Part shown: piece after piece, positions 4,344 to 53,984 of the stretch
Layout of the letters: each line of letters begins with the position of its first letter
Position numbering within the stretch: the stretch's first letter is position 1
Virus record (IMG/VR): IMGVR_UViG_3300005618_000021
Location: 1-55,129 of that record
Strand: one strand, 5' to 3'
Length of the DNA: 55,129 nucleotides
Origin: a virus
The notes under the pieces: model-generated
Told to the model about the DNA's origin: nothing
The model's input: the letters and a program-made list of their open reading frames with translations, nothing else
The model's database searches: none
Program-made: the position numbers and the translations under genes

Positions 4344-4667
4344 TTACAGAATCGCTAGGGCGCCCGTGTTGCGTACCACGATCTCGGGGCTGTCGGTCAC
4401 TCTGACGTACACGTCGTACAACGTCCCTTCGGTCAGGGTGATTACGCCGGTCGGCCCAACGAGCGCGCGGGCGTAGTACGTGACCGGCGACGTGCTGGTA
4501 TCGGTTTCCCAGCTCGCCGATTTCCAGTCGCCCGCGATCGGCGTCGCCCCGGTCAGGGGAAACGCCATCTCGAGGTTGTCCAGCGTGGGATCGATGGTCA
4601 GACCGTCTTCGACCGCGCCGATGGCGACACGTACGAACTCGGTGCTCAACGCGTCCTGAAAATGCAT
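4344..4667 (-). CDS. Probable minor structural protein
   Basis: 107 residues of beta-rich character (alternating polar and hydrophobic residues, WKSASWETDTS, YDVYVRVTDSPE) without Cys. AGGAGG lies a few bases before ATG 4667. It follows the large repeat protein in the operon and precedes the coiled-coil membrane gene. A small beta-sandwich attached to the tail tip or capsid is the most likely reading, but no family is recognised. Confidence 0.55.
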   Translation of the reverse strand: MHFQDALSTEFVRVAIGAVEDGLTIDPTLDNLEMAFPLTGATPIAGDWKSASWETDTSTSPVTYYARALVGPTGVITLTEGTLYDVYVRVTDSPEIVVRNTGALAIL

Positions 4668-4676: not shown

Positions 4677-6773
4677 CTATTCCTTGGCCGGTCCAATCGT
4701 CCACCGACTGCCGAGCGAGCCTGACGTCCACGGACTGCCGGGGGTACCTGCCGTCCAGGGGCTCGCTGGCACACTCATGTCCCAATCAGGATTGCGTCGC
4801 GCCGTGGTGAACAGCACGATCATGTTGTGTGTCTCGGGCACGGTCAGGCTCTGTGCTCGCGGGTACGCGCGCGGCGGCAGATCGCTGATGAACGTCGACT
4901 CGCCGACGACCATCGCATCCTGACCGATCAGGTGCCGTTTGGTCAGGTCGAGGAAGGTGTAATCGCGAGCCCGCAGCGGACCGCGCGGTGGGCCTTCTGT
5001 CTCCTGGCTTGTTTGGCCTGCCGGCAGTTGCTGGTAGATATGGAGCGGCAGCGTCTGGAGCCATGTGTAATCACGTGCTCGAGCTGCGGCCTTCGGCGGC
5101 AGTGCGCTAGCGTCAGAACCCTTGCCGACAGGCTTGAGCGCCGCGGCATCCAGCCCAAGGGTGAAATTGACGCCTGGCTCGTAGAGGGTTGCGACTCGTG
5201 GGGCTGCATATGGAGGCCGATGCAGCCACTGGCTGCCGGCGACCATTGCGTCCGTACCGAAGAGCCAGAACTCGGTCGGATCGCTGTAGCTGTAGTCGCG
5301 CGCTCGTGGTGCCCCACGCGCTGGCAGGTTGTCTGTCGATTGCTGTCCAGCCGGGAGCGCCTGAACAACGGTCGTCAGACAACACAGGTTGATCGGCGGG
5401 ACGAATGAGTAATCGCGTGATCGGAGCGCGGTGATCGGAGCGAGATCCGTCCACTGCTTACCGACGACCATTGCGTCGGTGCCGAACAGCCAGAACTCGG
5501 TAGGATCAGCCCACGTGTAATCCCGCGCGCGGGGTGCTGCTGGCGACGGCGCCAGATCGAACCGTTGCTGGCCCGCAGTGACGGCATCCTGACCAACCAG
5601 GACCGGGATGAGCTCTTGCGTCCACGTATAGTCACGCGCACGCGTGGCGGCACGAGCAGGCAGCGAATCGGTACTCTGCGCGCCGTACGGAATCGGCTGA
5701 ACAATCGTGGCCAGGCACAGGTTGATCGGTGACGCAAATGTATAGTCGCGTGCCCGGAGTGGGCCTACTGGCGGGAGCGCCGTGCTCTGCTCGCCGGCCG
5801 CCATCGCATCCTGGCCAAGGAGCGTGAGCGGGAACGACTCGGCGAGTGAGTAGTCCCTCGCTCGAGCCGCGGCTAGTGGCGGTAGATCGAATGACTGCTT
5901 GCCTGCGTTGAGCGCATCGGTGCCGAACAGCCAGACTTCGCTAGGATCGAAGAACGTGAGGAGATCGACAGACCGCGATGCAATACGCGGCGGAAGGTCG
6001 AACGACTGATCGCCAGTCGCCATCGCGTCCTGGCCGACAAGCTCGGGAATAAGCGTGTTGCCAGCGTTGACGTCATACGTAGCCTGCCGATACGGCGCCC
6101 GCGCAAACGCAATCGGCCGGCGTGTATCGAGCGTCGCCTGCCCTGGCGGCAGCGTTGCAACAATCTGCTCGGGCAGGAACGCGCTACCAGAGTTGCCGTC
6201 GTAAACCGGGTAGCGAAACTCGCGCGCCAGGAATGCCGCAGGGCGCCGCGTGTCAAGCGTGCTCTGCCCCGTAACCATTGCATCCTTGCCCTGAAGAGGC
6301 AAAGGCGTGCCATGGACCTGGTGGAAATTCTGGGCAGTGAGCGCCGCGTGCTGTTGACGTCGAATAACGGCCGCCGGACGTGTGGTTTCCCACGTCTGGG
6401 CGCCAGCGTTTTTGGCGTCCTTACCGACGAGCGGACGCGGTGTGCCACTAACCTGATCGATCTGCCCAGCAATTTGGGCAACTGAACGCTGGGTTCTGCT
6501 CAGGTAGGCCGCAGGTCGACGTGTATCGAGTGTGCTCTGGCCAGGAGCGACGAAATCCTTGAGCAGCCAGTGCTCGGTACCGTCGGTGAAACCTGGCGCC
6601 TCTTTGGGTGCCGGCCGCCCAAGATAGTTTGGCGGCAGCGACAGATGCGATGCGCCAACCGGGCCACCACCACCGCTCAGCAGCGGTAGTGGTGCATCAA
6701 TCTGACCATAGTCCTGGCTAGTCTGCGCAACGCGTTGCTGACGATCGCGCAGACCACCCGGCTGGTAGGGCAT
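4677..6773 (-). CDS. Large tandem-repeat virion protein (about 15 units of 35-43 residues)
   Basis: 698 residues, almost entirely tandem degenerate repeats from about residue 55 to 660. The unit core reads GQDAM-x-x-G-x-QS-x-D-LPP-x-x-A-x-RARDYT[FW], with variants GTDAM, GKDAM and, in early units, TLDTRRPAA. Adjacent units alternate between a PTEFWLFGTDAM-type and a PINLC-type start. The C-terminus ends in three PWT/RWT-G-type short repeats. There is no signal peptide or membrane segment. AGGTAGG precedes ATG 6773. It lies among fibre and lectin-like genes, so an extended tail-fibre, whisker or capsid-decoration role is inferred. The family is not one I recognise. Confidence 0.75.
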   Translation of the reverse strand: MPYQPGGLRDRQQRVAQTSQDYGQIDAPLPLLSGGGGPVGASHLSLPPNYLGRPAPKEAPGFTDGTEHWLLKDFVAPGQSTLDTRRPAAYLSRTQRSVAQIAGQIDQVSGTPRPLVGKDAKNAGAQTWETTRPAAVIRRQQHAALTAQNFHQVHGTPLPLQGKDAMVTGQSTLDTRRPAAFLAREFRYPVYDGNSGSAFLPEQIVATLPPGQATLDTRRPIAFARAPYRQATYDVNAGNTLIPELVGQDAMATGDQSFDLPPRIASRSVDLLTFFDPSEVWLFGTDALNAGKQSFDLPPLAAARARDYSLAESFPLTLLGQDAMAAGEQSTALPPVGPLRARDYTFASPINLCLATIVQPIPYGAQSTDSLPARAATRARDYTWTQELIPVLVGQDAVTAGQQRFDLAPSPAAPRARDYTWADPTEFWLFGTDAMVVGKQWTDLAPITALRSRDYSFVPPINLCCLTTVVQALPAGQQSTDNLPARGAPRARDYSYSDPTEFWLFGTDAMVAGSQWLHRPPYAAPRVATLYEPGVNFTLGLDAAALKPVGKGSDASALPPKAAARARDYTWLQTLPLHIYQQLPAGQTSQETEGPPRGPLRARDYTFLDLTKRHLIGQDAMVVGESTFISDLPPRAYPRAQSLTVPETHNMIVLFTTARRNPDWDMSVPASPWTAGTPGSPWTSGSLGSRWTIGPAKE

Positions 6774-6784: not shown

Positions 6785-7525
6785 TTATCCCCTGCCGCGA
6801 GCGATCGGGAAATCTGGCCCGGCTAGTTTGCCAGTTGATCCAACGTTGTAGTGGTCGCGCGCTTGCTGATAGGTCAACGCCGTGTTGTAAATTGCGACCT
6901 CATCAATACGCCCCATGAACCCACGGAAGTTGCCGCTATCTCGGCCGATATAGCGCGTGGCGGTCACACTTGATCGGGATGGGAATGTCCCCGAGAACAC
7001 AGCGTTCCCATTCAGGTACAGGATGTACGTTGTGCCTGAGATGACCGCCATCACATGGAAGAGATTCAGCGTCAGATCGAGTGGCCATGTGCTGGCGTCA
7101 AATTGCGTTGGATACTGGTCCCCAGCAAATCCGATATAGGGATAGGCACGTCCGTTGAAGCTGTTCTGCCCCACGTTCAGCGAACAACTGCCGCCACTCA
7201 GACCCGAATCGTAGAGACACCCGCCCAGACTGTCGAAACACATCACCCAGCACTCGATCGTCAGGTCACCTGTAATATCCAGCACAGCATTGCTTGCGAT
7301 GCTGACATACGCCGTCGGCGGGATGTTTCGGACGTCGAAGGACATCGCACCGTTCGCTTCATTGACCAAGTCGGTGCCTGTACCTTGCGTCCCAACATAA
7401 GTGCCGTTCTGCTGACCCATCTCATCGACGGCGACCGAGTCGGTGGGGGCGGCTTCACCCAGCCGCCAATATGAAACAGGATTTGCGTCAAAAATCAGTT
7501 TTGAGTACAGCGTATTGATCGTCAT
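6785..7525 (-). CDS. LamG/concanavalin-like lectin domain tail protein
   Basis: 246 residues. The order PVSYWRLGE, then LTIECWV, then YLNGNAVFSG, then RYIGRD...FRGFMGRIDEVAIYNTAL is the hallmark of LamG/laminin-G-like jelly rolls used for glycan binding. ATG 7525 overlaps the stop of the upstream gene. It sits among tail-fibre genes, which fits a receptor-binding or virion-decoration protein that recognises sugar. The last 20 residues are a Gly/Arg tail. Ligand unknown. Confidence 0.85.
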   Translation of the reverse strand: MTINTLYSKLIFDANPVSYWRLGEAAPTDSVAVDEMGQQNGTYVGTQGTGTDLVNEANGAMSFDVRNIPPTAYVSIASNAVLDITGDLTIECWVMCFDSLGGCLYDSGLSGGSCSLNVGQNSFNGRAYPYIGFAGDQYPTQFDASTWPLDLTLNLFHVMAVISGTTYILYLNGNAVFSGTFPSRSSVTATRYIGRDSGNFRGFMGRIDEVAIYNTALTYQQARDHYNVGSTGKLAGPDFPIARGRG

Positions 7526-8746: not shown

Positions 8747-9457
8747 TCAACCGATCAGGGCACCGTTCGTCTCTGGCGCGCCGTACCGCAACGCTTGATA
8801 GACGGCTTCCATGTTGACCACGTTCAGCCGCGCGAGCACCTCATGGCCAATAGCAATGGACATATCGAGGTAGACCTTGAATCCTAGGGCACGCGCACGA
8901 TTGCAAAAGTAGTAATCCTCCGACAGGTTGTTGAAACCGCCAGCCTGCGGATCGTTCTCAACCCCAAATCCGAACAACGGCCAGAATCGCCACGAGGCGT
9001 TGCTGTTGCATTCTGGCAGCACCTCGACCATCGCCGCGATCACCTTTCGGTGAACGGCGAAGAACCCGGTTGCCACGTGGCGCATCTCCAGTGGCTCGAG
9101 GTCAGGGCCAAACCTGAGCAGTGATTCGCCCAGCGTCCGAATCGCCAGATGGCTGGCGTCGCCAGTAGGGTAGGCCGCGGCAATCACGTCATGCCCGTCA
9201 CGGCACCGCTCAACAATGCCGTTGGCGTCGTCGGGATCGAACACGATGTCATCGTCGACCATCAGGAAGACATCATCGGTCGTCTCGCGAAACCATTTGG
9301 ATGCCTGGATGGAGCGGGCACGGTTGATGCCCGCCTCACCCCCGAGTTGCTCACGCCACTGGTTCGGTCCAGGCGTCGTGAGCAGTTTCGTGATACACCC
9401 GTGCGTCGGCAGACTGACCGACCGGTACGCACAGACAATCAGTGTGGCGGTGCTCAA
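8747..9457 (-). CDS. GT-A fold glycosyltransferase
   Basis: 236 residues from TTG 9457, which overlaps the stop of the GIY-YIG gene (TTGA). TATLIVCAYRS opens the nucleotide-binding strand, and FLMVDDDIVFD near residue 65 is the DxD-type metal/sugar-nucleotide motif; a later NNLSEDYYFCNRARALGFKVYLD segment resembles the catalytic-base region of family-2-like enzymes. It would transfer a sugar from a nucleotide donor in the cytoplasm. Its place among tail-fibre genes suggests a tail or virion protein as acceptor; that is inference. Confidence 0.8.
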   Translation of the reverse strand: MSTATLIVCAYRSVSLPTHGCITKLLTTPGPNQWREQLGGEAGINRARSIQASKWFRETTDDVFLMVDDDIVFDPDDANGIVERCRDGHDVIAAAYPTGDASHLAIRTLGESLLRFGPDLEPLEMRHVATGFFAVHRKVIAAMVEVLPECNSNASWRFWPLFGFGVENDPQAGGFNNLSEDYYFCNRARALGFKVYLDMSIAIGHEVLARLNVVNMEAVYQALRYGAPETNGALIG

Positions 9458-10254
9458 ATAGCTGTCTCTTTCAATCGGTCACGGCGGCGGATGTAGTGCT
9501 CGTGAGCCTGCCGTTTTGTACGTTCTGGATCACGTGCATAGTAGTCACGACGAGCCTTGCGCTGTGCTTCGAGTTGCTCCGGTGTGAGATTGGCAACTGC
9601 ACGTCGCTTATGGTCAGCCTCGCGTTTGAGTGCTGCGCGGGCCTGGTCATACGCGCGTTTCTGCTCCTTCCGAGCGGCCGCATAGTCGCGCATCTGAGCA
9701 GTGAGGCGCGGTTTGTTCGCTTTGTAATGAGCCTTGACTGCTTGTCGTCTGGCTTCGCGTTGCTCAAGAGTTTCCTTTGCATACACGCCAGACACTCGCT
9801 CGGCGTTGCATACACGACAGATGCGCTTGCCTGCTTTGCCACGGTAGGTATTCGCGTTATCGTAGACGTGACCCTTCGGGCACGCGATGATCTTCGCCAC
9901 GCGTTCTGCGATGGCTCTCCGAATATTCGCCAAGCCCTCCGGCGTATTGCGCGCACCAAGCCGGGAACCAGCGACCGGACAGATATTGAAGGCTGGCTGG
10001 AGCGCTTCGAGATATTCCTGCTCACGATCAATGAGGTCGACTCTGTCGCACTCATCAATGACGTAGAACCTGAACGCCGTCGCGCCATGCTTCGTCCATG
10101 CGTTCTGGAGGAATCGGCTGTGATGCGTACCAGCGTTCAGTTGTCCGCGATGCCTGTACCAGCGGTTCTCTATGTTGGCGCTACTACCGATGTAGAAGCG
10201 ATCTGTCCCAATTTGCTCGATTACATAGATCCCGCACCTATGCTTGCCTGGCAT
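9454..10254 (-). CDS. GIY-YIG homing endonuclease
   Basis: 266 residues. CGIYVIEQ and RFYIGSS near the N-terminus form the GIY-YIG motif, followed by RWYRHRGQLNAG (catalytic Arg) and FRFYVIDECD...REQEYLEALQPAFN (catalytic Glu and Asn). Residues about 120-165 hold a C-x-KGH...C-x2-C zinc-finger-like element, and the rest is a long basic Lys/Arg/Ala helix region expected to contact DNA. It lies between a structural gene and a glycosyltransferase, typical of a free-standing mobile endonuclease. A hairpin at 10256-10280 can mask its ribosome binding site. Confidence 0.9.
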   Translation of the reverse strand: MPGKHRCGIYVIEQIGTDRFYIGSSANIENRWYRHRGQLNAGTHHSRFLQNAWTKHGATAFRFYVIDECDRVDLIDREQEYLEALQPAFNICPVAGSRLGARNTPEGLANIRRAIAERVAKIIACPKGHVYDNANTYRGKAGKRICRVCNAERVSGVYAKETLEQREARRQAVKAHYKANKPRLTAQMRDYAAARKEQKRAYDQARAALKREADHKRRAVANLTPEQLEAQRKARRDYYARDPERTKRQAHEHYIRRRDRLKETAI

Positions 10255-10318: not shown

Positions 10319-10945
10319 CTAGATTGCCCCCGAGATGTAGGGTGCGATGCGCTCGCGGTGGAGGGTTTTACGATTGGAACGGTGGTGTCGATGGCTCTTT
10401 CCGCCACCATCGCCTAGATCGGCCGTTTGTAACGGGAGTGTAACGGCCGGTTCATATATGATATGGGCTCCTGTGAGCCCCGCAGTACCGCCGGTGAATG
10501 CGCTCAGTGACACCTCGCCCAGTGACGCGGTGTTGCCAATGGTCGACGGCTCCTCGCCTGGAGCTGCAACCCAGCGCACGATGCCACCGAAGGCGTTGTA
10601 CGACAGGTTGAGCAAGTGCAAGGTCGTCGAACGCTGCGGGTTGGTACCAGCGATGGTGAAGCCAATCGGTACGACCGACAGGACCGAATGCGTACCGTCC
10701 AATGCGGCTTGCATGGCGCCCGACGTACTCGACAGGGTGACACCCACGGTCGAGTCGCGCGACAACAGCATGAACGTTGGCGAGCTGGCACCAGCCTGGC
10801 CACCAAGATAGACCTCGATGAACGTGAGCCGCTGCGTGGCGTTGCCGCCCTGCACAGCCATGTACGAGCCATTGGCCAGCGCGGTCGCCGCGTCAGCCGT
10901 GGCAGTGGGCGTGAACGTCGTGAATGAATAGGAGAACTTGGCCAT
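10319..10945 (-). CDS. Virion structural protein, Ala/Thr/Ser-rich
   Basis: 208 residues. Low-complexity beta-rich N-terminal region (SYSFTTFTPTATADAATALANGSYMAVQGG), then a segment recognisable as a small jelly-roll-like structural domain. The last 30 residues switch to a His/Arg/Lys-rich tail (KSHRHHRSNRK). The composition of the main domain resembles the protein at 20248-20607. It probably decorates the virion. Confidence 0.6.
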   Translation of the reverse strand: MAKFSYSFTTFTPTATADAATALANGSYMAVQGGNATQRLTFIEVYLGGQAGASSPTFMLLSRDSTVGVTLSSTSGAMQAALDGTHSVLSVVPIGFTIAGTNPQRSTTLHLLNLSYNAFGGIVRWVAAPGEEPSTIGNTASLGEVSLSAFTGGTAGLTGAHIIYEPAVTLPLQTADLGDGGGKSHRHHRSNRKTLHRERIAPYISGAI

Positions 10946-10957: not shown

Positions 10958-11185
10958 TTACCTTTCAGAATGCGTCAATAGCGACGGATGAACAGGACCG
11001 CGGAACATACTGGTCTGTTCGGCCAGTAGCAACTGATAGTGGCGTACATCCTCCTTGACATCTGTCCATGTGCAGAGAGGACAGAGTCCCTCTGGAGTGG
11101 GGTAGTTGACACCATCGAAACGGTGACCAGTCTCGCAGTAACGACCTTCCAGGAGCGTGCGCTGCTCCTGTGTCAGTCCAGTCAT
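10958..11185 (-). CDS. Small Cys/His protein of unknown function
   Basis: 75 residues. YCETGH and LCPLCTW supply a possible Cys/His zinc site. ATG 11185 overlaps the stop of the upstream zinc-ribbon protein gene (ATGA), so the two are likely made together. No family recognised. Confidence 0.6.
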   Translation of the reverse strand: MTGLTQEQRTLLEGRYCETGHRFDGVNYPTPEGLCPLCTWTDVKEDVRHYQLLLAEQTSMFRGPVHPSLLTHSER

Positions 11186-11535
11186 AACGGCTTACCAGGG
11201 ACCAGGAGGGGACTGGTGGGCAAAGCGTGGAATTTGCCGTCTGAAATAGCGTCGGCCAACTGTTCGAACGGCTCACACCACAGGTTGTGGTTATCACACA
11301 CGACTTTCATGCACTTGCGACAGACTTCACGCTCACGCGTGCGTTCTGGCCGCTTGAGTACGATGGCATGGCAATGCGCACAGGTCCATGTGTCCACCTC
11401 GACCGCGGTGCTGCCAGGCACCGGTATGCCTCCGAGCGCGGCTACCTGCGGTGCCATTGCTTCGGGGATACCAGGCGAGTTGCGGTGATCGATAATCAGG
11501 TACCCGTTATGCCCTCCAATCTTGGTTGAGGCCAA
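11182..11535 (-). CDS. Conserved phage zinc-ribbon protein in tail region
   Basis: 117 residues from TTG 11535, supported by AAAAGGAGG nine bases before it. The N-terminal HNGYLIIDHRNSPGIPE block and the central DTWTCAHCH...REREVCRKCMKVVCDNHN block with four to five Cys match a small protein family often seen in phage structural operons. The two Cys-x2-Cys pairs imply a zinc ribbon. Its job is unknown. Confidence 0.7.
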   Translation of the reverse strand: MASTKIGGHNGYLIIDHRNSPGIPEAMAPQVAALGGIPVPGSTAVEVDTWTCAHCHAIVLKRPERTREREVCRKCMKVVCDNHNLWCEPFEQLADAISDGKFHALPTSPLLVPGKPL

Positions 11536-12186: not shown

Positions 12187-13221
12187 TTACAGGGTTGTGT
12201 CGAGCGAATGCTCAATCGTGCCCTCACGCGGCAGAGGAGTCCACGGGCGCCGAATTGGCATATCGAGCACGGCACCGAAGAATGGCGGCGGACCAGCCCA
12301 CAGCCAGAACTCCGCAATCGTGTAAACCTCTGGGCCATCGGATGTGAAGTTCGATGATCGACCGAACCCATCGGTGCCGTTGGTTGTTTCACAACGATGC
12401 TGCACCTCGACTACGGCCGATGACCTGAGTGCGAACAAACCAGCAACAATCGAAGTTGTCACCGTGCTTGCTGCTCGTGCCGACTGCCCCTGAACGAGCG
12501 TTCCGCCACCGGTTATATTCTGGAGACGGGCCTGATGATCATTGACTGAAAAAGCAGGCGCACTAATGTTGCAGCGATACGTACCAGCATTGAGCGTGAT
12601 CTGATTCAGTGTTCGATCCAACACTGCCAGATTCTGATCATTAGCAAGAAACGTGTTCAGCGTGCGTGTGCGCCACGCTCCTGTAGTAAATGCACCCCCA
12701 TTGGTACCGTCAGGTTTCTGGTCCTGGATACAGATGTATGGTGGCGCACCGGTAACGGTAAGCGTGCCAGGAGGGCCAGGCAACCCCTGAGCACCAGCCG
12801 CACCCGTCGGACCTGTAGCGCCTGTCGGACCCGTCGGCCCTATGGTAGCAATGTTTGAGAACGTGAGCGATGTCGACCCTAGCGTAACTGCTGCTGTCTG
12901 GGTATATACCCAGATCGTGCTCCCATTCGTCGTGCCTTCACGGACATAGATGAACCACCCCAGTGGAAAGTCCGCAGCACTGTCGGCGTCAACCGAGCGA
13001 GTCAGTAAGGTAGCCGCACCCGTCCAGACATAAATGCCATTGTCGGCTGGCACGGCCTGATCCTTGAGCAGAACCCGATCGCCAGAGGCCAGCGTGACAC
13101 CATCTATCGTCGCGCCTGGTGTGGCCAGCGTAATAGCTACGGTCGATGCGGCGCGTACTGGTTCCTTGAGCCGCTTGGCTTCGTGGAGGTCGGCCCCGCT
13201 AGCTGAGGAATGTGCTGGCAA
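12187..13221 (-). CDS. Tail fibre with collagen-like segment
   Basis: 344 residues from TTG 13221, with AGGAG seven bases upstream. Residues about 30-130 hold the ATPGATIDGVTLASGDRVLLKDQ and NGIYVWTG blocks of a common fibre N-domain that joins the tail. A short Gly-x-y run (GPTGPTGATGPTGAAG...) at about residues 130-155 forms a collagen-like trimer stem. The C-terminal half is a beta-rich globular head (INLNAGTYRCNISAPAFSV). It is the most probable receptor-binding fibre. Collagen-like Thr and Pro positions are also plausible glycan acceptor sites. Confidence 0.8.
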   Translation of the reverse strand: MPAHSSASGADLHEAKRLKEPVRAASTVAITLATPGATIDGVTLASGDRVLLKDQAVPADNGIYVWTGAATLLTRSVDADSAADFPLGWFIYVREGTTNGSTIWVYTQTAAVTLGSTSLTFSNIATIGPTGPTGATGPTGAAGAQGLPGPPGTLTVTGAPPYICIQDQKPDGTNGGAFTTGAWRTRTLNTFLANDQNLAVLDRTLNQITLNAGTYRCNISAPAFSVNDHQARLQNITGGGTLVQGQSARAASTVTTSIVAGLFALRSSAVVEVQHRCETTNGTDGFGRSSNFTSDGPEVYTIAEFWLWAGPPPFFGAVLDMPIRRPWTPLPREGTIEHSLDTTL

Positions 13222-14854: not shown

Positions 14855-15195
14855 GCCAGAATGAACTGCGCTCGAGCCACAACCTGGCCGTCCATACGTG
14901 GCGGGTCAGGGTTCGTTTCTTTGAGGTACGCGCTAACCGTATCCCAGTGATCGATCACGAGCGTGCCGGTCGTAGGTTGGCCGCGCATCAGTGCAAAGGT
15001 GACGTACTGGCCGCGATCCGTAAACACACACGTGACGGTGCGCGTCACTTCACGCTGCCCCCCGACACTGACCGCCACGTTGTTACCGCCAGGGAACCCA
15101 CGCGTATTGACCGATGACGTGGCCGGCTCCGACCAGCCTTCCTCGAGCGCCGTGAAACTGACCGAGCCGAAGCCAGACACGCTAAACGAGCTCAC
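14851..15195 (-). CDS. Distal tail-like protein
   Basis: 114 residues from GTG 15195, overlapping the tape-measure stop. Begins SSFSVSGFGSVSFTAL and has a central VTRTVTCVFTDRGQYVTFALMRG region reminiscent of small distal-tail or baseplate beta-barrels. Placed between tape measure and hub, where Dit-like proteins usually lie. Shorter than classical Dit proteins, so it may keep only the ring domain. Confidence 0.6.
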   Translation of the reverse strand: MSSFSVSGFGSVSFTALEEGWSEPATSSVNTRGFPGGNNVAVSVGGQREVTRTVTCVFTDRGQYVTFALMRGQPTTGTLVIDHWDTVSAYLKETNPDPPRMDGQVVARAQFILA

Positions 15196-17909
15196 GTCAC
15201 ACTCGGCAGTAGCGTTGGATGCGACGCGTTGTCAGGCGGGACCGCCACACGTCCTGCGGAATCGAGCACGGCATTCGCAATTCGCGCAAGTAGTGCGTCT
15301 ACATCGGAGGGGTTGCTGGCATTCACTGTGCCGACTTGGACGAGAACATTGCTTACTGGCTGCATGCCGGCTGCATTCACGGAGTTGAGCGCCGGCGCCG
15401 CCGCCGTCACGGCTCCGCGTCCGAGTCCGGCGGCACCACCAATAAGGTCGCCGTGCAGGAATGGAATAAGCCATGCTGGTGGCTCAGGCAAATTACGGAT
15501 AGCGGCCGCGAGGTTATTCAGCGCTGCGGTAAGGACGTCGATAAAGCTACTGACGTTGGCCGCATTGTCGCGAAGCAAAACAAACAGATCCCCGAATGGC
15601 CCGAACGACTTGGTGATAATGTCACCCAGATCAACGTTCTGGCGAATGAAGTCGGCAAGCCGCTGAAGTCCTGCCACCGTCGAGTCGGCGCCTCCCTCAC
15701 CCTTCGCACCGATCGATTGAAACGCGCTGATCACGTTACTCAGTGCTACAAAGAAATTCCCGACCGACTGAAAGACCGGAATGAGCGGTTGGAGTTGTGT
15801 CCCGAACGCTTGCAATGGCTGAAGCAGCGTGGTACCGAAGGCATTCCCTGCCTGCGCGACCTGATCAGTAGTGATAGTGCTGAGCGCTGTACCCAAGTCT
15901 CGGATCGACGAAATGAGGTTCTGGTCGATGAAGTCGCCGACCTTCTGAAAGGCTGGCTGCATCTTCGTATCCCAGAACTCGGCTAGCGTCTTCGATGCGC
16001 TTTCGAGTGTCGGGAACACTTGCTCGCCGAGCTGTAGGAAAAACGGCACCAACGTCCCCGACAGCCAGATCCCCACGGTCTGCAGTGCGGGACTGAGCTT
16101 CGTATCCCACACCTCGCCAAGACGAGCGCCAACATCGGCGAGAATCGGCATGGTCCGATCAGCCAGATCGGCGATGCCCGGTACAAGTTGGCCTGTGACA
16201 AACCCAGCAATTTGCTGGAAGACCCCAAGTAAATTACCCAGTGGCTCGGATACGGTGCCGACTATTGCACGGAAGGTATCGAACGCACCGCCCAGGTCAC
16301 CGTTGAGCACCTTCTCGAATACCAGACCGAAATTGGCGAAGACTGGCCCGAAATCGGTAAAGAACCGTTGGACCGCGTTTCTAACACCAGCGAGGATTGG
16401 CGCTATGCTCGGCGCGAGCGCACCCAAGATCGCCTGGAATGTATCGAGTGCACCACCCACATCCCCGTTTACAAGTTTATCGAAGACCAGTCCGAAGTTC
16501 CTCAAGATCGGTTCAGCACCCGCGAAAGCATTCTCGATCTTGGTCCGAACACCACCAAAATTATTGGCTAGTGCGAGCGCGGCCAAGCCGACCACTCCAA
16601 AGAGGCCAGCGAACAACGGCAGTAACCTGATCAGAGCAGCAAACGATGGCGCCAGGAAGATCACGAGGCGACCTAGCAGGGCAAACCCGCCGACTGCACC
16701 CAAGATGCTGCCACCGACGCCGGCTATCCCCACCAAGAACCGTTGAACTTCTGGCGATAGCGTGGAGAACTGGTCAACGAGCCCCTTAGCGGCTGTTGCC
16801 AGGTCACGCAGGACGGGCAAGAAAAAGTTGCCGATCTGAATCTGTACGGTTTCGATTGAGCCAGCTAAATTTTGAAGAACACCCTGCAAGTTGTCCATAC
16901 GCGTCTGCGCTGATTGAGCAGCCACGCCTGATCCTGCAGTCGCATCGCTAAACGCCTGGACCAGCTGACCGCCAAGTTCAAAGATGGCATTCGCTGCCCG
17001 CTGGCCGTCCGTTCCAAAGATAGTCGTCAGTGCTTGCTGTCGCTGCTCGGACGTCAGTCCCTTGAGCGCGTTCCGAAGGATCTCTGCAACCGACGCCATA
17101 TCGCGGATGTTCCCGCTGGCATCGAAGAACGCGTTACTGCCATCGGCGAGCGTTAGCCCGAGTCGCTTGAACTCATCCTTCTGCTTTTTGGTGTCCGGGA
17201 TAAGCCCGTTGAGGAACGCCTTGAACGAGGTGCCAGCGTCAGCACCTGTGGCGAACCTGTTCGACAGCAAGCCGAGCGTAACGAGCGTGTCGTTCAACGA
17301 CAACCCAACCCCTGCCGCCACCCCACCTACCGCTGCCAGACCAAACCGAAGGAATGACACATCAGATGCTGACGCATTCGCCACCGCAGCCAAGCGATCG
17401 ACCACGCTCGTGAGTTCAGATGCCTGGACGCCAAAAATGTTCATCGCCTGAGCGGCAATCGTGGCGGCCTCAGTAGTAGTAATGCCAGTTGCTGCGGCCA
17501 AGTTCAGCGCAGCAGCCGCCGCACCATTGAGCACTGCCTCAGCCGGAATGCCTGCCTTGACGAGTTCTTCGATAGCTGAGGCAGCCTGACTACTACTGAA
17601 GACTGTATCGCGGCCCAATTTGAGCGCCAGCTCCGTTAGCCCAGCACCGAACTGCTCAATCTCAGAAGGGTCCAAGACTGCCTTGACGCCCGACATCTGA
17701 TGCTCAAAATCAGCCGCTGTGGAGATGGCACTCACAAATCCTGCGCCGATACCTGCCGCAGCGGAAGTCAGTACGAGCGCAGCAGGGGCTGCCGTCCGGA
17801 ACGTGTTGCCAAGCGTATTGACCTGATTGTTGAGCGTGTTCAGGCCAGAGATGGCCCCGCTCACGTCCGCCGAGACGGCGATGAAGAGCTCAGCAATCGG
17901 TACAGGAAT
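15192..17909 (-). CDS. Tail tape measure protein
   Basis: About 905 residues. The N-terminal 320 residues are the TP901-type tape-measure core (FEHQMSGVKAVLDPS...LGRDTVFSSSQAASAIEELVKAGI...GLTSEQRQQALTTIFG). Hydrophobic helices follow at about 365-435. Two pairs of internal repeats then occur, counting from GTG 17864: NFGLVF[DE]K-type at about 451-480 and 506-536, and [EF]WDTK-type at about 582-610 and 627-655. The frame is open above GTG 17864 and reads VPIAELFIAVSADVSG, a normal tape-measure N-terminus; the only start candidate there is ATT 17909, seven bases after GAGGG. It is flanked by the chaperone and distal-tail genes. Confidence 0.85.
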   Translation of the reverse strand: MPVPIAELFIAVSADVSGAISGLNTLNNQVNTLGNTFRTAAPAALVLTSAAAGIGAGFVSAISTAADFEHQMSGVKAVLDPSEIEQFGAGLTELALKLGRDTVFSSSQAASAIEELVKAGIPAEAVLNGAAAAALNLAAATGITTTEAATIAAQAMNIFGVQASELTSVVDRLAAVANASASDVSFLRFGLAAVGGVAAGVGLSLNDTLVTLGLLSNRFATGADAGTSFKAFLNGLIPDTKKQKDEFKRLGLTLADGSNAFFDASGNIRDMASVAEILRNALKGLTSEQRQQALTTIFGTDGQRAANAIFELGGQLVQAFSDATAGSGVAAQSAQTRMDNLQGVLQNLAGSIETVQIQIGNFFLPVLRDLATAAKGLVDQFSTLSPEVQRFLVGIAGVGGSILGAVGGFALLGRLVIFLAPSFAALIRLLPLFAGLFGVVGLAALALANNFGGVRTKIENAFAGAEPILRNFGLVFDKLVNGDVGGALDTFQAILGALAPSIAPILAGVRNAVQRFFTDFGPVFANFGLVFEKVLNGDLGGAFDTFRAIVGTVSEPLGNLLGVFQQIAGFVTGQLVPGIADLADRTMPILADVGARLGEVWDTKLSPALQTVGIWLSGTLVPFFLQLGEQVFPTLESASKTLAEFWDTKMQPAFQKVGDFIDQNLISSIRDLGTALSTITTDQVAQAGNAFGTTLLQPLQAFGTQLQPLIPVFQSVGNFFVALSNVISAFQSIGAKGEGGADSTVAGLQRLADFIRQNVDLGDIITKSFGPFGDLFVLLRDNAANVSSFIDVLTAALNNLAAAIRNLPEPPAWLIPFLHGDLIGGAAGLGRGAVTAAAPALNSVNAAGMQPVSNVLVQVGTVNASNPSDVDALLARIANAVLDSAGRVAVPPDNASHPTLLPSVT

Positions 17910-21682: not shown

Positions 21683-21774
21683 CAGTAGGGCCGCGGCCTG
21701 GGCTTCGGCTTGGGTCGGGGTTTCGGCATGGGCTTGATCCGCTGTGGCTGAGTCGGGAATCGAACAAGGGTCAT
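21682..21774 (-). CDS. 30-residue Pro/Lys/Arg peptide, coupled on both sides
   Basis: Reads MTLVRFPTQPQRIKP followed by a KPRPKPKPRPRPY tail. ATG 21774 overlaps the aminotransferase stop (ATGA) and its own stop overlaps the connector ATG (TGATG), so it forms an unbroken translational chain. The basic polyproline tail could bind DNA or a structural partner. It may instead serve only to carry ribosomes from the inserted glycan island back to the connector gene. Confidence 0.5.
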   Translation of the reverse strand: MTLVRFPTQPQRIKPMPKPRPKPKPRPRPY

Positions 21775-22919
21775 GCGGGCACCAACTGACGGGCGTGCGC
21801 CCATTCGAGCACGGCGGCTACAACACGCGCACGATCATTGTTTGAGAGCCACCACCCGACCGGGATCGCCACCTCGTGCTCGGCGAACGCATCCACGCCG
21901 GGCAGTGGGCCATTGGGGTAGAAGAAGGCGGGGTGGGTGTCGTTGCGCCTGTGCACGGGACTTGCACTGATACCACGGCTGCTCAGATGATCGATCAATG
22001 ACGCTCGGTCATCGACCAGCACGCAGTACAGCCACCAGGACGAGCCGGGATCCTCAGGAGGCGAGGTGAGGCCCGGCACGTCCTGGAGCGCCTGCGAGTA
22101 CCAGACCGCGTTCTCACGATGCCTGGCCACAAGTTCTTGAACGTGCGGGATGTTGGCTAGCCCAATCGACGCCGCGATGTCGTTCATGTGGTACTTGAAC
22201 CCAACTTCACGAATGTCTTGAGAGCAGCGAAAGTCCGCGGATGAGGTGCGGTCGAGGCCGTACCAGCGCAAGAGCCGAGCGCGCTCGTACTGGTGCTCGG
22301 GGACCATGAGCGCGCCGCCATCTCCAGTGGTCAAATGCTTGATTGCCTGAAAGGACCACGCCACGTAGTCGCCGCGGTTGTTCGGATCGACGAACAGGTT
22401 GTGTGCGGCGTCCTGAATGACGGGCAGCAGCGGAACTATTTGCTTGACTGGTGCGCTGTCAATCGCCTGGCGGAGGGCCGCATAGTCACATGAGCGCCCC
22501 GCCCAGTCCACGGCCATGACGGCTCTAGTTCGGTGCGTAATCTTGTGGAGCACATCGGTCGGATCGATCAAGCCCGTGATTGGGTCGACGTCGGCCCAGA
22601 CAATCTTGGCACCACGATTGACGATGACCCCGTTCGTGGCCGTACACGTCATCGGCGTGGTGATCACTTCGCTGCCGAGTCCGACACCACACAGATGCAA
22701 GGCCAGGTCGAGCGCCGACGTACAAGAATTGAGCGCTAGTGGAGAAAGGGATGGTGGTGGCATCCCCACTAACTGCCCGAAGGCTTGCTCGAACTCCTGC
22801 ACGCGCGGCCCCTCGCCGAGATAAGAGCGTCCGCTCTCATCGGGAGTCAGCGTAGCGACAACCCGTTCTTTCGCTTCTGGTGCAACGAACGGACGGAACA
22901 AATCGATCACTGTGGCCAT
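21771..22919 (-). CDS. DegT/DnrJ/EryC1/StrS sugar aminotransferase
   Basis: 382 residues. PLP-fold landmarks: NSCTSALDLALHL near residue 65, VDPITGLIDP, AVDWAGRSCD, VIQDAAHNL (PLP-binding Asp) and WSFQAIKHLTTGDGG, whose Lys194 is the Schiff-base residue. Family members transfer an amino group from Glu or Gln to a keto group on a nucleotide sugar. It is the last gene of the second glycan island and follows the GNAT gene, a pairing that would make an N-acylated amino sugar. Confidence 0.9.
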   Translation of the reverse strand: MATVIDLFRPFVAPEAKERVVATLTPDESGRSYLGEGPRVQEFEQAFGQLVGMPPPSLSPLALNSCTSALDLALHLCGVGLGSEVITTPMTCTATNGVIVNRGAKIVWADVDPITGLIDPTDVLHKITHRTRAVMAVDWAGRSCDYAALRQAIDSAPVKQIVPLLPVIQDAAHNLFVDPNNRGDYVAWSFQAIKHLTTGDGGALMVPEHQYERARLLRWYGLDRTSSADFRCSQDIREVGFKYHMNDIAASIGLANIPHVQELVARHRENAVWYSQALQDVPGLTSPPEDPGSSWWLYCVLVDDRASLIDHLSSRGISASPVHRRNDTHPAFFYPNGPLPGVDAFAEHEVAIPVGWWLSNNDRARVVAAVLEWAHARQLVPA

Positions 22920-25437: not shown

Positions 25438-26580
25438 TCAGTACGCCCTGAGAAAATCGCTCATGACCTCGCCCACGTACGCCGCGCCATCCTCGTCGTC
25501 GAATGATGACAGCCCAATATAAAACCCGTCCGTATGGATACGCTCCGCGCCTGGCAATCCGCTCGCGACAATCTTCGGGTGTTCACGCGCCACTGGTTGC
25601 TCCGCGAAGTTGCCCGCCACAATCGGTCGCGTCTCGACCCCGTGCGCATCGAGGTGACGGCACAAGTCGCGTTTCCAGAATGGGGCGTCTGGTGCGACCA
25701 TCAGCGGAAACCCATGCCACGCCGGCTCACACTCGGGCAGCACGGTGATCCCGCGCAGATACTGCGGCCACGCCTTGCTCGTGACTTCGGTCAGCCGATC
25801 GTAGTTTCGGGCTCGAGCCGCCCGAAAACCTTCGATCCGGGTCATCTGCACGTTGCCAAACGCGCCCTGAAGTTCTGTTGGCCGCACATTCAGGCCCCAC
25901 GTCGGGAACCAGAACGGGAAATCTGCCTTCGGCTCCCAGCCGTGCGATCGCCACAACCGATAGTCGCGTGCGTCCAATGGCGCGTCCGTGACCACCATGC
26001 CACCCTCCATCGTGTTCAGCAGGTGGCTGAAGAAAAAGCTAAACGCCGCGGCCTGGCCTAACGTCCCAACATGCTCCCCATGCCAGCGAGCCCCCATCGC
26101 CTCACAGCAATCCTCAAGGATCGGAACATCGACGTCGTCGAGATCGTCCAGGTTGCCAACGTTCCCCAGCACATGCACCAGAAATAGCGCCTGGGTGTGA
26201 ATGTTGGTCTTGTGCCGCATATCAGCAAAATCCATTTGCAGCGTGGCCGGATCAACGTCGACCAGACGCACCGTATATCCAGCCATGATGCACGACCAGA
26301 TCTGCGTCGGCCACGTCACCGCGGGTACCAGGATCTCGTCGCCTGGCTGGGCTGGCCCTAGACCGTGAGCAATAAGCAGATCTGCGCTCGAGCCGCTGTT
26401 GACCATGATCGCGTGCTGGCGCCCAACGTACGCTGCGAACGACCGCTCAAACTCACGAACAGCGGGGCCGCACGTGGTCTGGCCGGCGCGCAGCGTCATC
26501 ATGACCGCGGCCATCTCTTCGTCGCCATAACTCACGTGAGCGAGCGGGTAGCGTTTGGTCTTGGGCTCGCTCGCTACCAT
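25438..26580 (-). CDS. DegT-family PLP enzyme with catalytic His (ColD/3-dehydratase-like)
   Basis: 380 residues. Fold landmarks are MVNSGSSADLLIAHGLG, LVPAVTWPTQIWSCIMAG, VDVDPATLQMD, ILEDCCEAMGARW and AFSFFFSHLLNTMEGG. In ordinary aminotransferases that last motif has Lys four residues before [GM]EGG; here the residue is His186, just as ColD (GDP-4-keto-6-deoxymannose 3-dehydratase) has His188. Such enzymes remove a hydroxyl from C3 of a keto sugar with PLP and no Schiff base to the enzyme. The substrate may be a nucleotide hexose or heptose. Confidence 0.8.
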   Translation of the reverse strand: MVASEPKTKRYPLAHVSYGDEEMAAVMMTLRAGQTTCGPAVREFERSFAAYVGRQHAIMVNSGSSADLLIAHGLGPAQPGDEILVPAVTWPTQIWSCIMAGYTVRLVDVDPATLQMDFADMRHKTNIHTQALFLVHVLGNVGNLDDLDDVDVPILEDCCEAMGARWHGEHVGTLGQAAAFSFFFSHLLNTMEGGMVVTDAPLDARDYRLWRSHGWEPKADFPFWFPTWGLNVRPTELQGAFGNVQMTRIEGFRAARARNYDRLTEVTSKAWPQYLRGITVLPECEPAWHGFPLMVAPDAPFWKRDLCRHLDAHGVETRPIVAGNFAEQPVAREHPKIVASGLPGAERIHTDGFYIGLSSFDDEDGAAYVGEVMSDFLRAY

Positions 26581-28451: not shown

Positions 28452-28791
28452 CGTTGTCACCATCGAGCATGAACCAGATCGCTTCAGCAACCTCCTCTGG
28501 ATCGACATCGGTTCCTCGTAAGTCCCAGCGCAACCCCCCGTCATACCAAGCCGTAAGATCGAGCCCAGGAAACTCACTACACACGCGCGCCATCAAGGTA
28601 AGTGCGTCCAAACCACCCCGGCGCCGTACCACAAAGTCAACGTAGAACGAATTCGCCTCGACCTGGGCCTTGGTGGGATTCTCGTGCCCCTCACAACTAC
28701 TGGACGTGGAAATACTCGGAATGCAATTCAAAGCCTCAACTAACGACCGAATGCCTTCGTCGATCTGGATTGCTTCTCGCGCGGCAGTCAT
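28429..28791 (-). CDS. Conserved unknown with SSCEGH motif
   Basis: 120 residues. IRSLVEALNCIPSISTSSSCEGHENP resembles a small protein family whose signature is SSCEGH/SCSGH, followed here by FYVDFVVRR and a C-terminal acidic helix. The Cys and His may bind a metal. Start overlaps the HNH endonuclease stop (ATGA). Function unknown. Confidence 0.65.
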   Translation of the reverse strand: MTAAREAIQIDEGIRSLVEALNCIPSISTSSSCEGHENPTKAQVEANSFYVDFVVRRRGGLDALTLMARVCSEFPGLDLTAWYDGGLRWDLRGTDVDPEEVAEAIWFMLDGDNDGETVED

Positions 28792-29699
28792 GACGGCACC
28801 TGCGGCAGCGCACCAAACAAGCGCTCATACTCGGCCAATCTCTCGGCCATAGACAGTTCGCGTCGTTTGCGATCCGCCGCAGTCTTCCACGTGTGGTGCG
28901 TCGGATCGAGGATTTGCAGGTTGTCCAACCGGTTGTCGGTTTTGTTCTGATTCTTGTGGTCTACCTGCTCACGCGTATCGAGCACCCGCCCTAGCGACTG
29001 CTCCACAATCCAGCGGTGCTCAAGGACATGACCATTACGGCTAGCCTTGGGATGCGTTGGCTCGTAGATCGTGTAGTAGCCCTGAGCGTTTAGGAGAACC
29101 GGCCGTCCATTATGTTCGCGACCCGTTGGCCGCTTGATGGAAGCGAGTGCCCCATGCGCTCTGCAACAATACTTCCGCGTATCACTTGGTCGGCGCGGTA
29201 ATACCTTAGGGCAACCGTCTAATGCGCATGCCACCATGCGCCTGACCTTCTTGAATGACTCGTAGGCACACGCCTTCGAGTGAAACCGACGGTTCTGCTT
29301 TATATAGGCAGGTTGACGGTAGAACAACCTACCGCACCCCTCGCACGGGATGGTGTCACCCGTACGCGGTCTGCGGGGGTGAGCGTATCCCCCGCGCTCC
29401 TGACGCTGGCGCATGTTCCATTTAGCTCGACACGCCATTGAATGGAACCAAGGGCGCTCAGCATTCTTCTCATTGACGTACCGCACGACCTCAACGCTGC
29501 ATTCAGCACAGGGCCTTGCTTCAATCAGCCCGCGATATCTATTCGGCTCGCGAGAGGCGCTAGCGCCCTGCGGCATGTGTGGCCGCTGACAGTCCCTATC
29601 GCAGAACCATCTGGCTCCGCGCGCTTGAGACAAATAACGAGTCAGCAGTTTTCCACATGTCGCACAGGGCCTAGTCGCCTTTTCTCCTCGAACTGGCAT
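28788..29699 (-). CDS. HNH homing endonuclease with several zinc fingers
   Basis: 303 residues. Four Cys-x2-Cys...Cys modules lie in order (PCATCGK...CDRDC; PCAECS...MACR; PCEGCGR...KAC; CALDGCPK...CCRAH), followed by the HNH core HVLEHRWIVEQSLGRVLDTREQVDHKNQNKTDNRLDNLQIL near residue 240. It lies between the major capsid gene and small head genes, a classical target for free-standing endonucleases. The start is within an RBS-masking hairpin at 29699-29725. Confidence 0.9.
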   Translation of the reverse strand: MPVRGEKATRPCATCGKLLTRYLSQARGARWFCDRDCQRPHMPQGASASREPNRYRGLIEARPCAECSVEVVRYVNEKNAERPWFHSMACRAKWNMRQRQERGGYAHPRRPRTGDTIPCEGCGRLFYRQPAYIKQNRRFHSKACAYESFKKVRRMVACALDGCPKVLPRRPSDTRKYCCRAHGALASIKRPTGREHNGRPVLLNAQGYYTIYEPTHPKASRNGHVLEHRWIVEQSLGRVLDTREQVDHKNQNKTDNRLDNLQILDPTHHTWKTAADRKRRELSMAERLAEYERLFGALPQVPS

Positions 29700-32017: not shown

Positions 32018-32239
32018 ATGGATACATGCCCAAACTGTCTCCACGACAACGACATGCACTACGCGCCTGATGGACCAGGAACCCGAGTCGTTTGCGTCGA
32101 CGGCTATCGCGATCCTCTGTGGGGGACTACAACCGACTGCGATTGTGTCATGGTCCCGCCGTGCTGCATCGCAGACCGATGCCTTGGCCTTAGTGCCAGA
32201 CACACCTGCTGCATCTGTTTAGGCAGTAGCGAGGACTAG
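32018..32239 (+). CDS. Rightward Cys-rich small protein
   Basis: 73 residues reading against the operon. CPNCLHDNDMHYAPDGPGTRVVC and later DCDC, PPCC, CCIC give many paired cysteines, a likely zinc-binding module of a kind seen in short phage proteins beginning C-x2-C-x-H-D. The 3' end overlaps the end of the glycosyltransferase gene by 21 bases. A leftward frame over the same bases lacks such order, so this strand is preferred. Modest confidence. Confidence 0.45.
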   Translation: MDTCPNCLHDNDMHYAPDGPGTRVVCVDGYRDPLWGTTTDCDCVMVPPCCIADRCLGLSARHTCCICLGSSED

Positions 32240-33340
32240 TCGCGGCTTCGCGCGGAACCGCTCAATTGCATCGAGCCACGCCAGTGGCCAGTTCTGCCAA
32301 TTCTTCTCTAGCGTGTATTTCTCCATCACGGTGCGCCGCGCGTTCCGACTGATCGTCCTGCGCAACTCGGCATCTTCGATCAGCCGGCTCAACGCCTCGA
32401 CGATCTGCTCTGCTGTCTCGGCAACCAGCGCGTCCTCGCCATCGGTCACTTCCGCACCATAAAGCGTCGGGCTGACAACACACGCCACACCGGCCAGCGT
32501 CATCTCGTACCACTTGATGCACGTCTTCGACGTGTTGAACACCAGCGGCGCGACGATGCAACAACCAATGTCGAGGTTGATCAGCGCTCGCGGGTACTCT
32601 TCCAGGGACAGCCACGGCAGCGAGTGGCGCCGTTCGTCTGGGATCGAGTGGTACAGCGAATCGCTCATGTGACCCTGAATCACGAACTCCACGTGCGGGT
32701 AGCGCTTGGCGATGATCGTCCACGCCTCGGCGAGTGGCTTCATGTCGGCCTCTTCGCGCGCCCCGCCAGCCCAACCAACCGTCAACTTGCCTTCGAGCTC
32801 GGGAATGCGCCCAATACCACGGAGCGTGGCCTTGAACCACCTGGCGTCAATGCTGTTCGGGATGTGGTAGACCGGCGTATCCGCGGGCGCGTACTGGCGC
32901 GCAATCGTCGCCAGACGCCGACTCGACACCGTGACGCCGTCGCACACACTCAGCATCTTGATGCGTTCGTTGCGTTCCCACTCGAGCTGTTTCTCACCTT
33001 TGGCGGCTTCCGCGGGAAAGACGCGCATCTGACGATCGACGATCCTGGGCGAGAAGATGTCGTCATCGATCTCGTACAGCCAGGCTAGACCGGCTTTATG
33101 AATGACGTTGACCCATGCCTCGCCAATTCCTTCGACTGGCCAGACGATGCGCGGCGTAATGACAGCGTCATACCGGCCCTGCGCAACCAGCGGCAGCACC
33201 TTGTCCGAATCGTTCTTGTGGCACCACTCGGCGATGTACCCACGCTGCTCGAGTTCTCGGAACGGCTGCCAAATTCTCCAAAGTGAGCAACCTGTCTCGT
33301 CGCCGCAGAGCGCGAGAACGCGAGGTGCGCGACCGAGCAC
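32219..33340 (-). CDS. GT-B fold (GT4-like) glycosyltransferase
   Basis: 373 residues from GTG 33340, with GAGGTG close upstream. VLALCGDETGCSLWRIWQPFRELEQRG at the N-terminus, YHIPNSIDARWFK near residue 165, TVGWAGGAREEADMKPLAEAW, then FNTSKTCIKWYEMTLAGVACVVSPTLYG and DALVAETAEQIVEAL are the order found in GT4-type enzymes. It stands alone between a minor head gene cluster and the prohead protease, with its own gap upstream. Confidence 0.88.
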   Translation of the reverse strand: MLGRAPRVLALCGDETGCSLWRIWQPFRELEQRGYIAEWCHKNDSDKVLPLVAQGRYDAVITPRIVWPVEGIGEAWVNVIHKAGLAWLYEIDDDIFSPRIVDRQMRVFPAEAAKGEKQLEWERNERIKMLSVCDGVTVSSRRLATIARQYAPADTPVYHIPNSIDARWFKATLRGIGRIPELEGKLTVGWAGGAREEADMKPLAEAWTIIAKRYPHVEFVIQGHMSDSLYHSIPDERRHSLPWLSLEEYPRALINLDIGCCIVAPLVFNTSKTCIKWYEMTLAGVACVVSPTLYGAEVTDGEDALVAETAEQIVEALSRLIEDAELRRTISRNARRTVMEKYTLEKNWQNWPLAWLDAIERFRAKPRLVLATA

Positions 33341-39296: not shown

Positions 39297-39508
39297 GTAT
39301 CAACGCCGACTGGATCGCGATACTTGATCTCTCGTGCGGCGCCGGCTAGCACCGCTGCGAGTTTGAACGCGCCATCGGCGGTCATGCAGATACTGAAAGT
39401 CTGACCTTCACTGACCATCCGTAAGCACACCGTGTCGTCATCAACATCGCGCATGACCGCTAGCACGCCGCCTGGGAGCCGCGCCGACCAGTGCCGTGAC
39501 GTTGTCAC
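39293..39508 (-). CDS. Small protein inside heptose cassette
   Basis: 71 residues from GTG 39508 (GTGA overlap with the SDR). VLAVMRDVDDDTVCLRMVSEGQTFSICMTADGAFKLAAVLAGAAREIK is a compact beta-beta-alpha domain. Coupled to hddA by ATGA. The gene at 40205-40480 has a similar position after a sugar enzyme. Function unknown. Confidence 0.55.
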   Translation of the reverse strand: MTTSRHWSARLPGGVLAVMRDVDDDTVCLRMVSEGQTFSICMTADGAFKLAAVLAGAAREIKYRDPVGVDT

Positions 39509-40215
39509 GCCGGCACCACCCTTCGCATGCGGTAGTCATCCTTGCCCAACTCGCCCAGGTGCTCCCAATCGTCCCACACCGCGCTGAACAACCGACCGCT
39601 GATCCCGTCACTGCGCGAGGATGCCAGAATCGCTATCAGGTCGACCGCTCGCTGCATCGCAGCGTCAGGATCGTCTGGTAGCGCCGCGCGTAACCGCATG
39701 CGCGTATTGAGCGTGCCAGGGGCCACCGCGTTGACATCGATCCCCGTATCAGCCAGGTCGATGGCGAGCGCTTCGGTGAATCGCAGCAGGCCCGCCTTCG
39801 ACGTGTTGTACGCCGTACATTCGGGATGTGGCCGCACGCCCGCACCCGAGACGTTGATGATCTTGCCGTGGCCTTGCTTGCGCATGATCGGCAAGACAGC
39901 GCGACAGCAAATCACTGCGCCAATAAGGTTAATACGAATAGCCTCCAGCCATTCGAGCCAATTGATTTCATCGATTTGGCCGACCGGACCATAAATGGCC
40001 GCATTGTTGACTAGCACGTCGATTCGACCATTGATCTCGATGATGTTGTCAACCATATCGTCAACATCACAATGCAGCCCCACGTCGCATTGGTACGTAG
40101 TGTCGCCATGCCTCGAGCACGTAATAACCGTGTGTGTCTGCGCGAGATGATTTGCCACGGCCGCGCCCAGGCCCATGCTGCCGCCGGTGACGAGCGCGAC
40201 CGGCTTATCCGTCAA
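39505..40215 (-). CDS. Short-chain dehydrogenase/reductase
   Basis: 236 residues from TTG 40215, at a 13-base repeat. VALVTGGSMGLGAAVANHL (cofactor loop), DVLVNNAAIYG, KIINVSGAG (Ser) and AYNTSKAGLL (Tyr and Lys) form a complete classical SDR catalytic set; VAPGTLNTRM follows. NAD(P)-dependent oxidation or reduction of a sugar intermediate is likely from context. The sugar is not identifiable. Confidence 0.85.
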   Translation of the reverse strand: MTDKPVALVTGGSMGLGAAVANHLAQTHTVITCSRHGDTTYQCDVGLHCDVDDMVDNIIEINGRIDVLVNNAAIYGPVGQIDEINWLEWLEAIRINLIGAVICCRAVLPIMRKQGHGKIINVSGAGVRPHPECTAYNTSKAGLLRFTEALAIDLADTGIDVNAVAPGTLNTRMRLRAALPDDPDAAMQRAVDLIAILASSRSDGISGRLFSAVWDDWEHLGELGKDDYRMRRVVPA

Positions 40216-40216
40216 A
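40204..40216 (-). repeat. 13-base gene-junction repeat, copy 2
   Basis: Minus-strand TTTGACGGATAAG. It ends the small gene (FDG-stop) and contains TTG ACG GAT AAG, the start of the SDR (L-T-D-K). Copy 1 is at 40469-40481. Confidence 0.8.
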
Positions 40217-40480
40217 AGCACGGTCCTCGCGAACCTCGGTGACGATAATGATGTAGCGCTTACCGTTGATCCCGATCTGCATATCTGCTCGATGCCCGTC
40301 GTCACGAATGCCGCTACTGCTGGTCATGTGCTGGACTAACGTTTCGATTGGATGCCAGTGCGAACTGATCCACGCATCCATGACAGACGCGAGCAACTGG
40401 CTCGCTCGTGGTACACCGCCGAGTTCGAGATCGCGATAACAAGACGGAATGTCACTCGGCGCTACGTACTTATCCGTCAA
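40205..40480 (-). CDS. Small protein after the epimerase gene
   Basis: 91 residues from TTG 40480 (no ATG or GTG fits better; the start is provisional). LELGGVPRASQLLASVMDAWISSHWHPIETLVQHM is helical; QIGINGKRYIIIVTEVRE is a beta hairpin. It ends FDG-stop, exactly like the epimerase upstream. Function unknown. Confidence 0.5.
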   Translation of the reverse strand: MTDKYVAPSDIPSCYRDLELGGVPRASQLLASVMDAWISSHWHPIETLVQHMTSSSGIRDDGHRADMQIGINGKRYIIIVTEVREDRAFDG

Positions 40481-40481
40481 A
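40469..40481 (-). repeat. 13-base gene-junction repeat, copy 1
   Basis: Minus-strand TTTGACGGATAAG. It ends the epimerase gene (FDG-stop) and contains TTG ACG GAT AAG, the proposed start of the small gene. Identical to the junction at 40204-40216, 265 bases away. Confidence 0.8.
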
Positions 40482-53907: not shown

Positions 53908-53984
53908 TTGTAAACAGCCGCTAATCTCTCGTTGCTCAATCGTGACTGCCTGAGTTCTAGTCAACGACCGTTCGTCTAGTGAAC
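53908..53984. other. Repressor-integrase gap with imperfect dyad
   Basis: About 70 bases. CTAGTCAACGACCGTTCGTCTAG at 53957-53979 has matching CTAG and ACGA/TCGT arms that overlap the integrase GTG. It could be an att core or control site; no proof of either. Confidence 0.3.

Follow-up and report, generated by a model that had tools for sequence, protein, structure and literature searches.

The locus studied here, from a soil-type phage, raises the question of what a phage protein built almost wholly of tandem repeats may be, and whether it belongs to the virion. It lies in the window, the whole 55,129-base IMG/VR virus record that was analysed, and the original prediction had read it from the sequence as a 698-residue protein. 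That protein is real; its gene runs along the minus strand, and stops are abundant on the plus strand of the interval. Comparison of the gene with its homologue in contig L085 over 586 codons gives a dN/dS of 0.20, and because of this purifying selection the repeat frame can be regarded as a real gene.

Self-comparison of the protein against 50 shuffles shows peaks at lags of 75, 36 and 111 residues (z of 8.8, 6.4 and 6.1), with a unit of about 37 residues. The predicted number of about fifteen repeats was recovered with a unit HMM built from the homologues in G002 and L085 only, which matches 15 units in the window protein at a full-sequence E-value of 7e-149 (479 bits), the top of 1000 shuffles reaching 9.4 bits. 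The repeats are as described, but their lengths across the protein are 36-46 residues and not 35-43. The core proposed at the outset also holds, in the form L-[IVF]-G-[QT]-D-A-M-x-x-G-x-Q-S-x-D-L-P-P-x5-R-A-R-D-Y-[ST]-[WFY], while the N-terminal third (about 240 residues) carries a divergent unit, GQSTLDTRRP..F, of about 42-46 residues. Strict alternation of two sub-types in neighbouring units, which had been suggested, was rejected since units resemble each other most at lag 3, followed by 4 and 2. The change announced for the C-terminus was confirmed: the sequence ends in ...SPWTAGTPGSPWTSGSLGSRWTIGPAKE, and its last 38 residues form a W-x8-W-x8-W tail with a tryptophan every 9 residues. Arm length varies by whole-unit insertions and losses (698 residues in the window, 706 in L085 and 901 in G002). 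Identity between the window and L085 is 0.44 at the N end and climbs towards the C end, where it reaches 0.96; conservation holds for the tail end and not for the body.

No curated repeat family matches the protein, in agreement with the view that it resembles no common phage fibre repeat, and nothing above cut-off was returned from Pfam, PHROGs, NCBIfam, PADLOC or, by sequence, the PDB. The only Pfam name obtained, the YadA_head repeat (PF05658), was discarded as chance-level, with 13.4 bits (E 0.11) over 15 residues and a gathering cut-off of 25 bits; BACON domain models gave no match in the Pfam scan of the window protein. A scan using the whole 698-residue protein found no close relatives, and the whole-unit alignment was too variable to serve as query. 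Among 50,697 phage records no cultured phage encodes the window protein or the two family proteins tested, nor the 14-residue arm, the MAKF-type protein or the 107-residue protein described below. A DNA pattern search of bacterial genomes, of limited sensitivity, gave 31 matches, which were taken as chance because none lies in an ORF with tandem repeats; this negative is only partial because the same pattern recovers just 7 of the 23 viral loci. The A3 profile found nothing in 398 genomes of one phylum, in a search run without a positive control.

The original prediction had treated the repeat as unrecognised; the unit HMM, phmmer and intermediates that mix motifs indicate instead one form of a broad family of uncultured phages. 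The motif DWPNPRG of environmental phage proteins was matched as a DNA pattern in 23 viral contigs, most of which encode tandem units of about 36-41 residues with the form DWPNPRGxxxxIDLRTWxxxxLxLxGQD. An HMM of DWPNPRG units alone detects the window protein with an E-value of 2.2e-4 (best of 200 shuffles, 0.4). The profile search of one unit, proposed as a check on the first reading, gave a weak link to these DWPNPRG/LRTW relatives, the single-unit profile-profile score of 11.6 exceeding the maximum of 9.8 in 100 permuted controls but carrying a low probability. Starting from the window protein, phmmer finds L019 (2e-23) and L035 (4e-18), both of which interleave the two motif forms in one array; the forms are likewise mixed in L030, in L033, where LPPGQSTLDS is followed by DWPNPRG units, and in L084, with the hybrid unit YDYPNPRGPARARDYTW. 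To judge from these sequences, such intermediates are the strongest link between the window repeat and the DWPNPRG family. One HMM across the family counts 3-28 units per protein, members occur in dozens of uncultured-phage contigs, and just a handful of close relatives of the window's LPP...RARDYT subtype were found. The window unit is a member of a large unnamed repeat family present in many uncultured phages; neither a printed mention of the DWPNPRG motif nor a published or curated family name was found in the literature searched. Because none of the libraries searched includes this widespread family of uncultured phages, its proteins are annotated as hypothetical and the host-contact parts of their phages go unseen.

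The window encodes a terminase large subunit, a portal, an HK97-type capsid protein, a tape measure, an integrase and an endolysin match, and the presence of virion genes together with integrase and endolysin therefore indicates a temperate siphovirus-like phage. The order of genes is tape measure, hub-like and fibre-like genes, the repeat gene, and then a holin-like gene and the endolysin (Table 1); the repeat gene shares the minus strand with the fibre-like, holin-like and endolysin genes on either side of it. The repeat gene is consequently located among tail genes, as a tail fibre or appendage would be, and the tail/virion PHROG matches of the fibre-like protein place its slot in a virion-structural region.

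Table 1. Coordinates of the repeat-arm gene, its parts and its neighbours in the window.
Feature	Position	Strand	Evidence
107-aa conserved gene, next one downstream; invariably accompanies W-tail genes as their constant partner	4344..4667	-	comparison of contigs
Repeat-arm protein of 698 aa; 15 units between a short N-terminus and the W-periodic tail	4677..6773	-	self-comparison, unit HMM, dN/dS
C-terminal tail, residues 661-698, Trp every 9	4680..4793	-	common to genes with unrelated repeat arms
Canonical units, residues ~245-660, core LIGQDAMxxGxQSxDLPPxxAxRARDYTW	4794..6041	-	sequence, unit HMM
Divergent N-terminal units, residues ~33-244, core GQSTLDTRRPxAFLxR	6042..6677	-	sequence; compare L033
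LamG/ConA-like lectin-domain protein; optional neighbour	6785..7525	-	PF13385 E 7.9e-18
MASPAF-type protein; homologous domain fused N-terminal to repeat arm in L033	7522..8223	-	comparison with L033
MAKF-type protein, module marker (~167 aa in relatives)	10319..10945	-	comparison with relatives
Small CxxC...CxxC (zinc-ribbon-like) protein, found with MAKF-type gene	11182..11535	-	Cys pattern read from sequence
Fibre-like protein, collagen-like stretch	12187..13221	-	tail/virion PHROG matches
Tail length tape measure protein	15192..17864	-	phrog_1533 9.8e-83, PF10145 2.4e-43

The LamG-like neighbour pointed out from the start is real but is not a conserved partner: a homologue is present in G003 and was not found in the G002 stretch, so that LamG as an obligate partner was rejected. 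The constant neighbours are the 107-residue gene and the pair formed by the MAKF-type and CxxC genes. This pair accompanies the repeat in the window and G002 and at 10 of the 23 loci found with the DNA pattern; with the MAKF-type protein as bait 32 of 80 viral contigs, some of them near-duplicates, have a family repeat ORF nearby. The CxxC protein has no PHROG match; the 107-residue protein, with no Pfam or PHROG match, looks Ig-like.

Several further features were observed in the window. The MAKF-type ORF runs about 40 residues beyond the G002 stop (IIYEPA), as if the stop had been lost. A GIY-YIG homing-endonuclease-like ORF (9454-10254) lies within the repeat module and an HNH ORF (28788-29699) beside the capsid gene, and DNA methyltransferase-like and integrase-like genes are found at 49141-50076 and 53979-55073. 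The intervals 21771-22919, 25438-26580, 32219-33340 and 39505-41369 mark a further set of genes: two DegT-type aminotransferases and a glycosyltransferase occur among the structural genes, and epimerase- and FabG-like genes are close by. This set could possibly serve sugar modification of the virion or of the host surface.

Related phages carry different arms in the same slot. In G003 and G006, whose TerL proteins are 72% and 66% identical to that of the window, it is occupied by an unrelated array of 14-residue RDATARIRV units (RDATARIRVGITAW), and these arms end in the same W-periodic tail followed by the same 107-residue gene. The presence of different arms on one C-terminal tail in the slot of related phages therefore suggests that this is probably a swappable tail arm. 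With the 107-residue gene as bait 22 contigs were collected, in 14 of which an ORF with the strict W tail ends 11-47 bp before that gene, a looser form being seen in two or three more; of 3139 background ORFs, 19 have the W tail, and many of the 19 belong to this set. The bodies ahead of the tail are 37-residue units, 14-residue RDATARI, 14-residue SDTLQLVYNTR, 18-residue Ala-rich or LamG-like, or there is none. In L164 a 46-residue ORF (6833-6970), nearly all W-periodic tail, directly precedes the 107-residue gene, and it is possibly the minimal form of the cassette. Of 396 Actinomycetota genomes, 2 also contain the 107-residue gene; in each it is preceded by a W-tail gene, and in one a terminase-like gene comes next. 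L084 and L188 have a different, HTL-type periodic tail and then a different gene of about 107 residues, which suggests, from few independent cases, that tail and partner gene match each other.

The association with tail genes extends to other phages that carry relatives of the unit; the following PHROG matches come from these and not from the window protein. The repeat of L029 is fused to a domain matching PHROG 26379 (2.6e-55; function unknown), with weak baseplate-wedge matches, and its gene adjoins a baseplate wedge (PHROG 6, 2.1e-44); elsewhere the repeat gene comes directly after a tail-fibre-assembly match (L039, 1.4e-24), after a minor tail match (L028, 4.1e-9) or before a tail protein match (L035, 3.9e-30). 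As for the virion location first proposed, gene order and these fusions to tail/baseplate-type domains favour a tail-associated role. Other MAKF-type loci carry different repeat proteins: a 529-residue protein of L151 (11166-12752) consists of LAGDQPTATGxLTR repeats, and its start (MPIWR..QPQPLRRQ) is similar to that of the 14-residue-repeat arm of L173. Two kinds of repeat can also share one arm, single proteins of L119 and L120 mixing AGSYAITGA-type repeats with DWPNPNP units and one of L099 combining them with other motifs.

Structure prediction gave no fold that would support the extended virion filament of the original prediction. For four units of the window protein, AlphaFold2 run on a family alignment of 30 rows reached a pLDDT of 51 and a pTM of 0.16 without strands, so that no fold was obtained for the 37-residue units. 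The model may reflect either folding on binding or an obligate multimer. Ten units of the 14-residue replacing arm were predicted as an all-beta structure with one 10-residue strand per unit (pLDDT 67, pTM 0.59); fold searches with this arm gave no confident match, with weak beta-helix and functional-amyloid matches at PDB E-values above 1e-3 and low TM-scores.

We consider it somewhat probable that the protein is a tail-associated arm which contacts the host surface. In this proposal the temperate siphovirus-like phage would bear a tail-associated appendage with the repeat-arm protein as its arm, and the tandem units of about 37 residues in the body would lend the arm reach and present contact surfaces repeatedly. 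The constant end would be the C-terminal W-x8-W-x8-W tail, by which the arm is probably docked to the virion; the likeliest link is the protein of about 107 residues encoded directly downstream, as gene adjacency suggests. The body would change as units are gained or lost and as unrelated repeats take its place, dock and partner being retained; an exchangeable body on a kept dock fits this proposal because it is what would be expected of a part that meets the host surface.

The lack of a predicted fold for four units despite a 30-row alignment can also be read in another way, which we regard as unlikely: the units would be mostly extended and fold on binding, the chain wrapping along a virion lattice of repeating sites, on the tail tube or the capsid, with one unit per site as a clamp or decoration. 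The composition, with 10% proline, a net charge near zero and one W/Y and one R per unit, would suit such a chain. However, the missing fold does not discriminate, because monomer prediction commonly fails for trimeric fibres; a unit number of 3-28 in the family, different also between near relatives, is a poor fit to a fixed lattice, and the replacing arm is predicted as regular beta structure. The same lack of fold, together with the adjacent fibre-like genes, would be compatible with a scaffold or chaperone that assists the assembly of neighbouring fibres and is absent from mature particles. We find this very improbable, as the arm can be wholly missing, as in the tail-only ORF of L164, and is swapped for unrelated repeats, which would be unusual in a chaperone.

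The slot adjoins the holin-like and endolysin genes, the window carries an integrase, and the 14-residue arms start with a hydrophobic MSLLLLF..-like stretch, all of which could point to a moron between tail and lysis genes encoding a non-virion lysogeny or late-stage factor, such as a surface or secreted adhesin or a superinfection exclusion protein. Yet the window protein has no hydrophobic start, its gene is on the same strand and tightly spaced inside the virion-gene run, and the family has fusions and neighbours of baseplate and tail-fibre type, which makes this origin improbable.

Beyond the tail-associated arm itself, we tentatively suggest, at less than even likelihood, that environmental phages share a cassette for mounting arms, made of the W-periodic C-terminal tail and a matching partner of about 107 residues. 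Unrelated repeat polymers (37-residue LPP/DYTW, 14-residue RDATARI and SDTLQLVYNTR, 18-residue Ala-rich, LamG-like) would be interchangeable on it and the number of units would fix how long the arm is, so that new host contacts could arise quickly. The combination of arm, tail and partner gene can be used as a search signature, and because bodies are swapped while the tail is kept, it can be put to the test whether phages shift reach and target through arm exchange rather than point mutation.

Fibre shafts of phages and adenovirus are made of short beta repeats in trimers. The window arm is comparable in that a reiterated short repeat would set the length of the appendage, with one predicted strand per unit in the 14-residue replacing arm; in contrast, no sequence or fold relation to such shafts was found in the PDB by sequence or in fold searches with that arm. 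The closest published analogue is the tail-linked tandem BACON repeats of crAss-like phages, which occur in a protein of uncultured phages near tail genes, evolve in unit number by duplication and transfer and have a proposed host-binding role (PMC6949934). Tandem units, proximity to tail genes and variable unit number are common to both. BACON is, however, a known Ig-like domain with named homologues, whereas the window unit of about 37 residues is in no curated library; the window slot also replaces whole repeat types on a kept C-terminal tail, and no tail and partner cassette is described for BACON in the passages considered (PMC6949934). The DWPNPRG...LRTW proteins, finally, have the same repeat as the window, since one HMM detects units in both, and the window protein differs from them as a divergent subtype (LPP...RARDYT).
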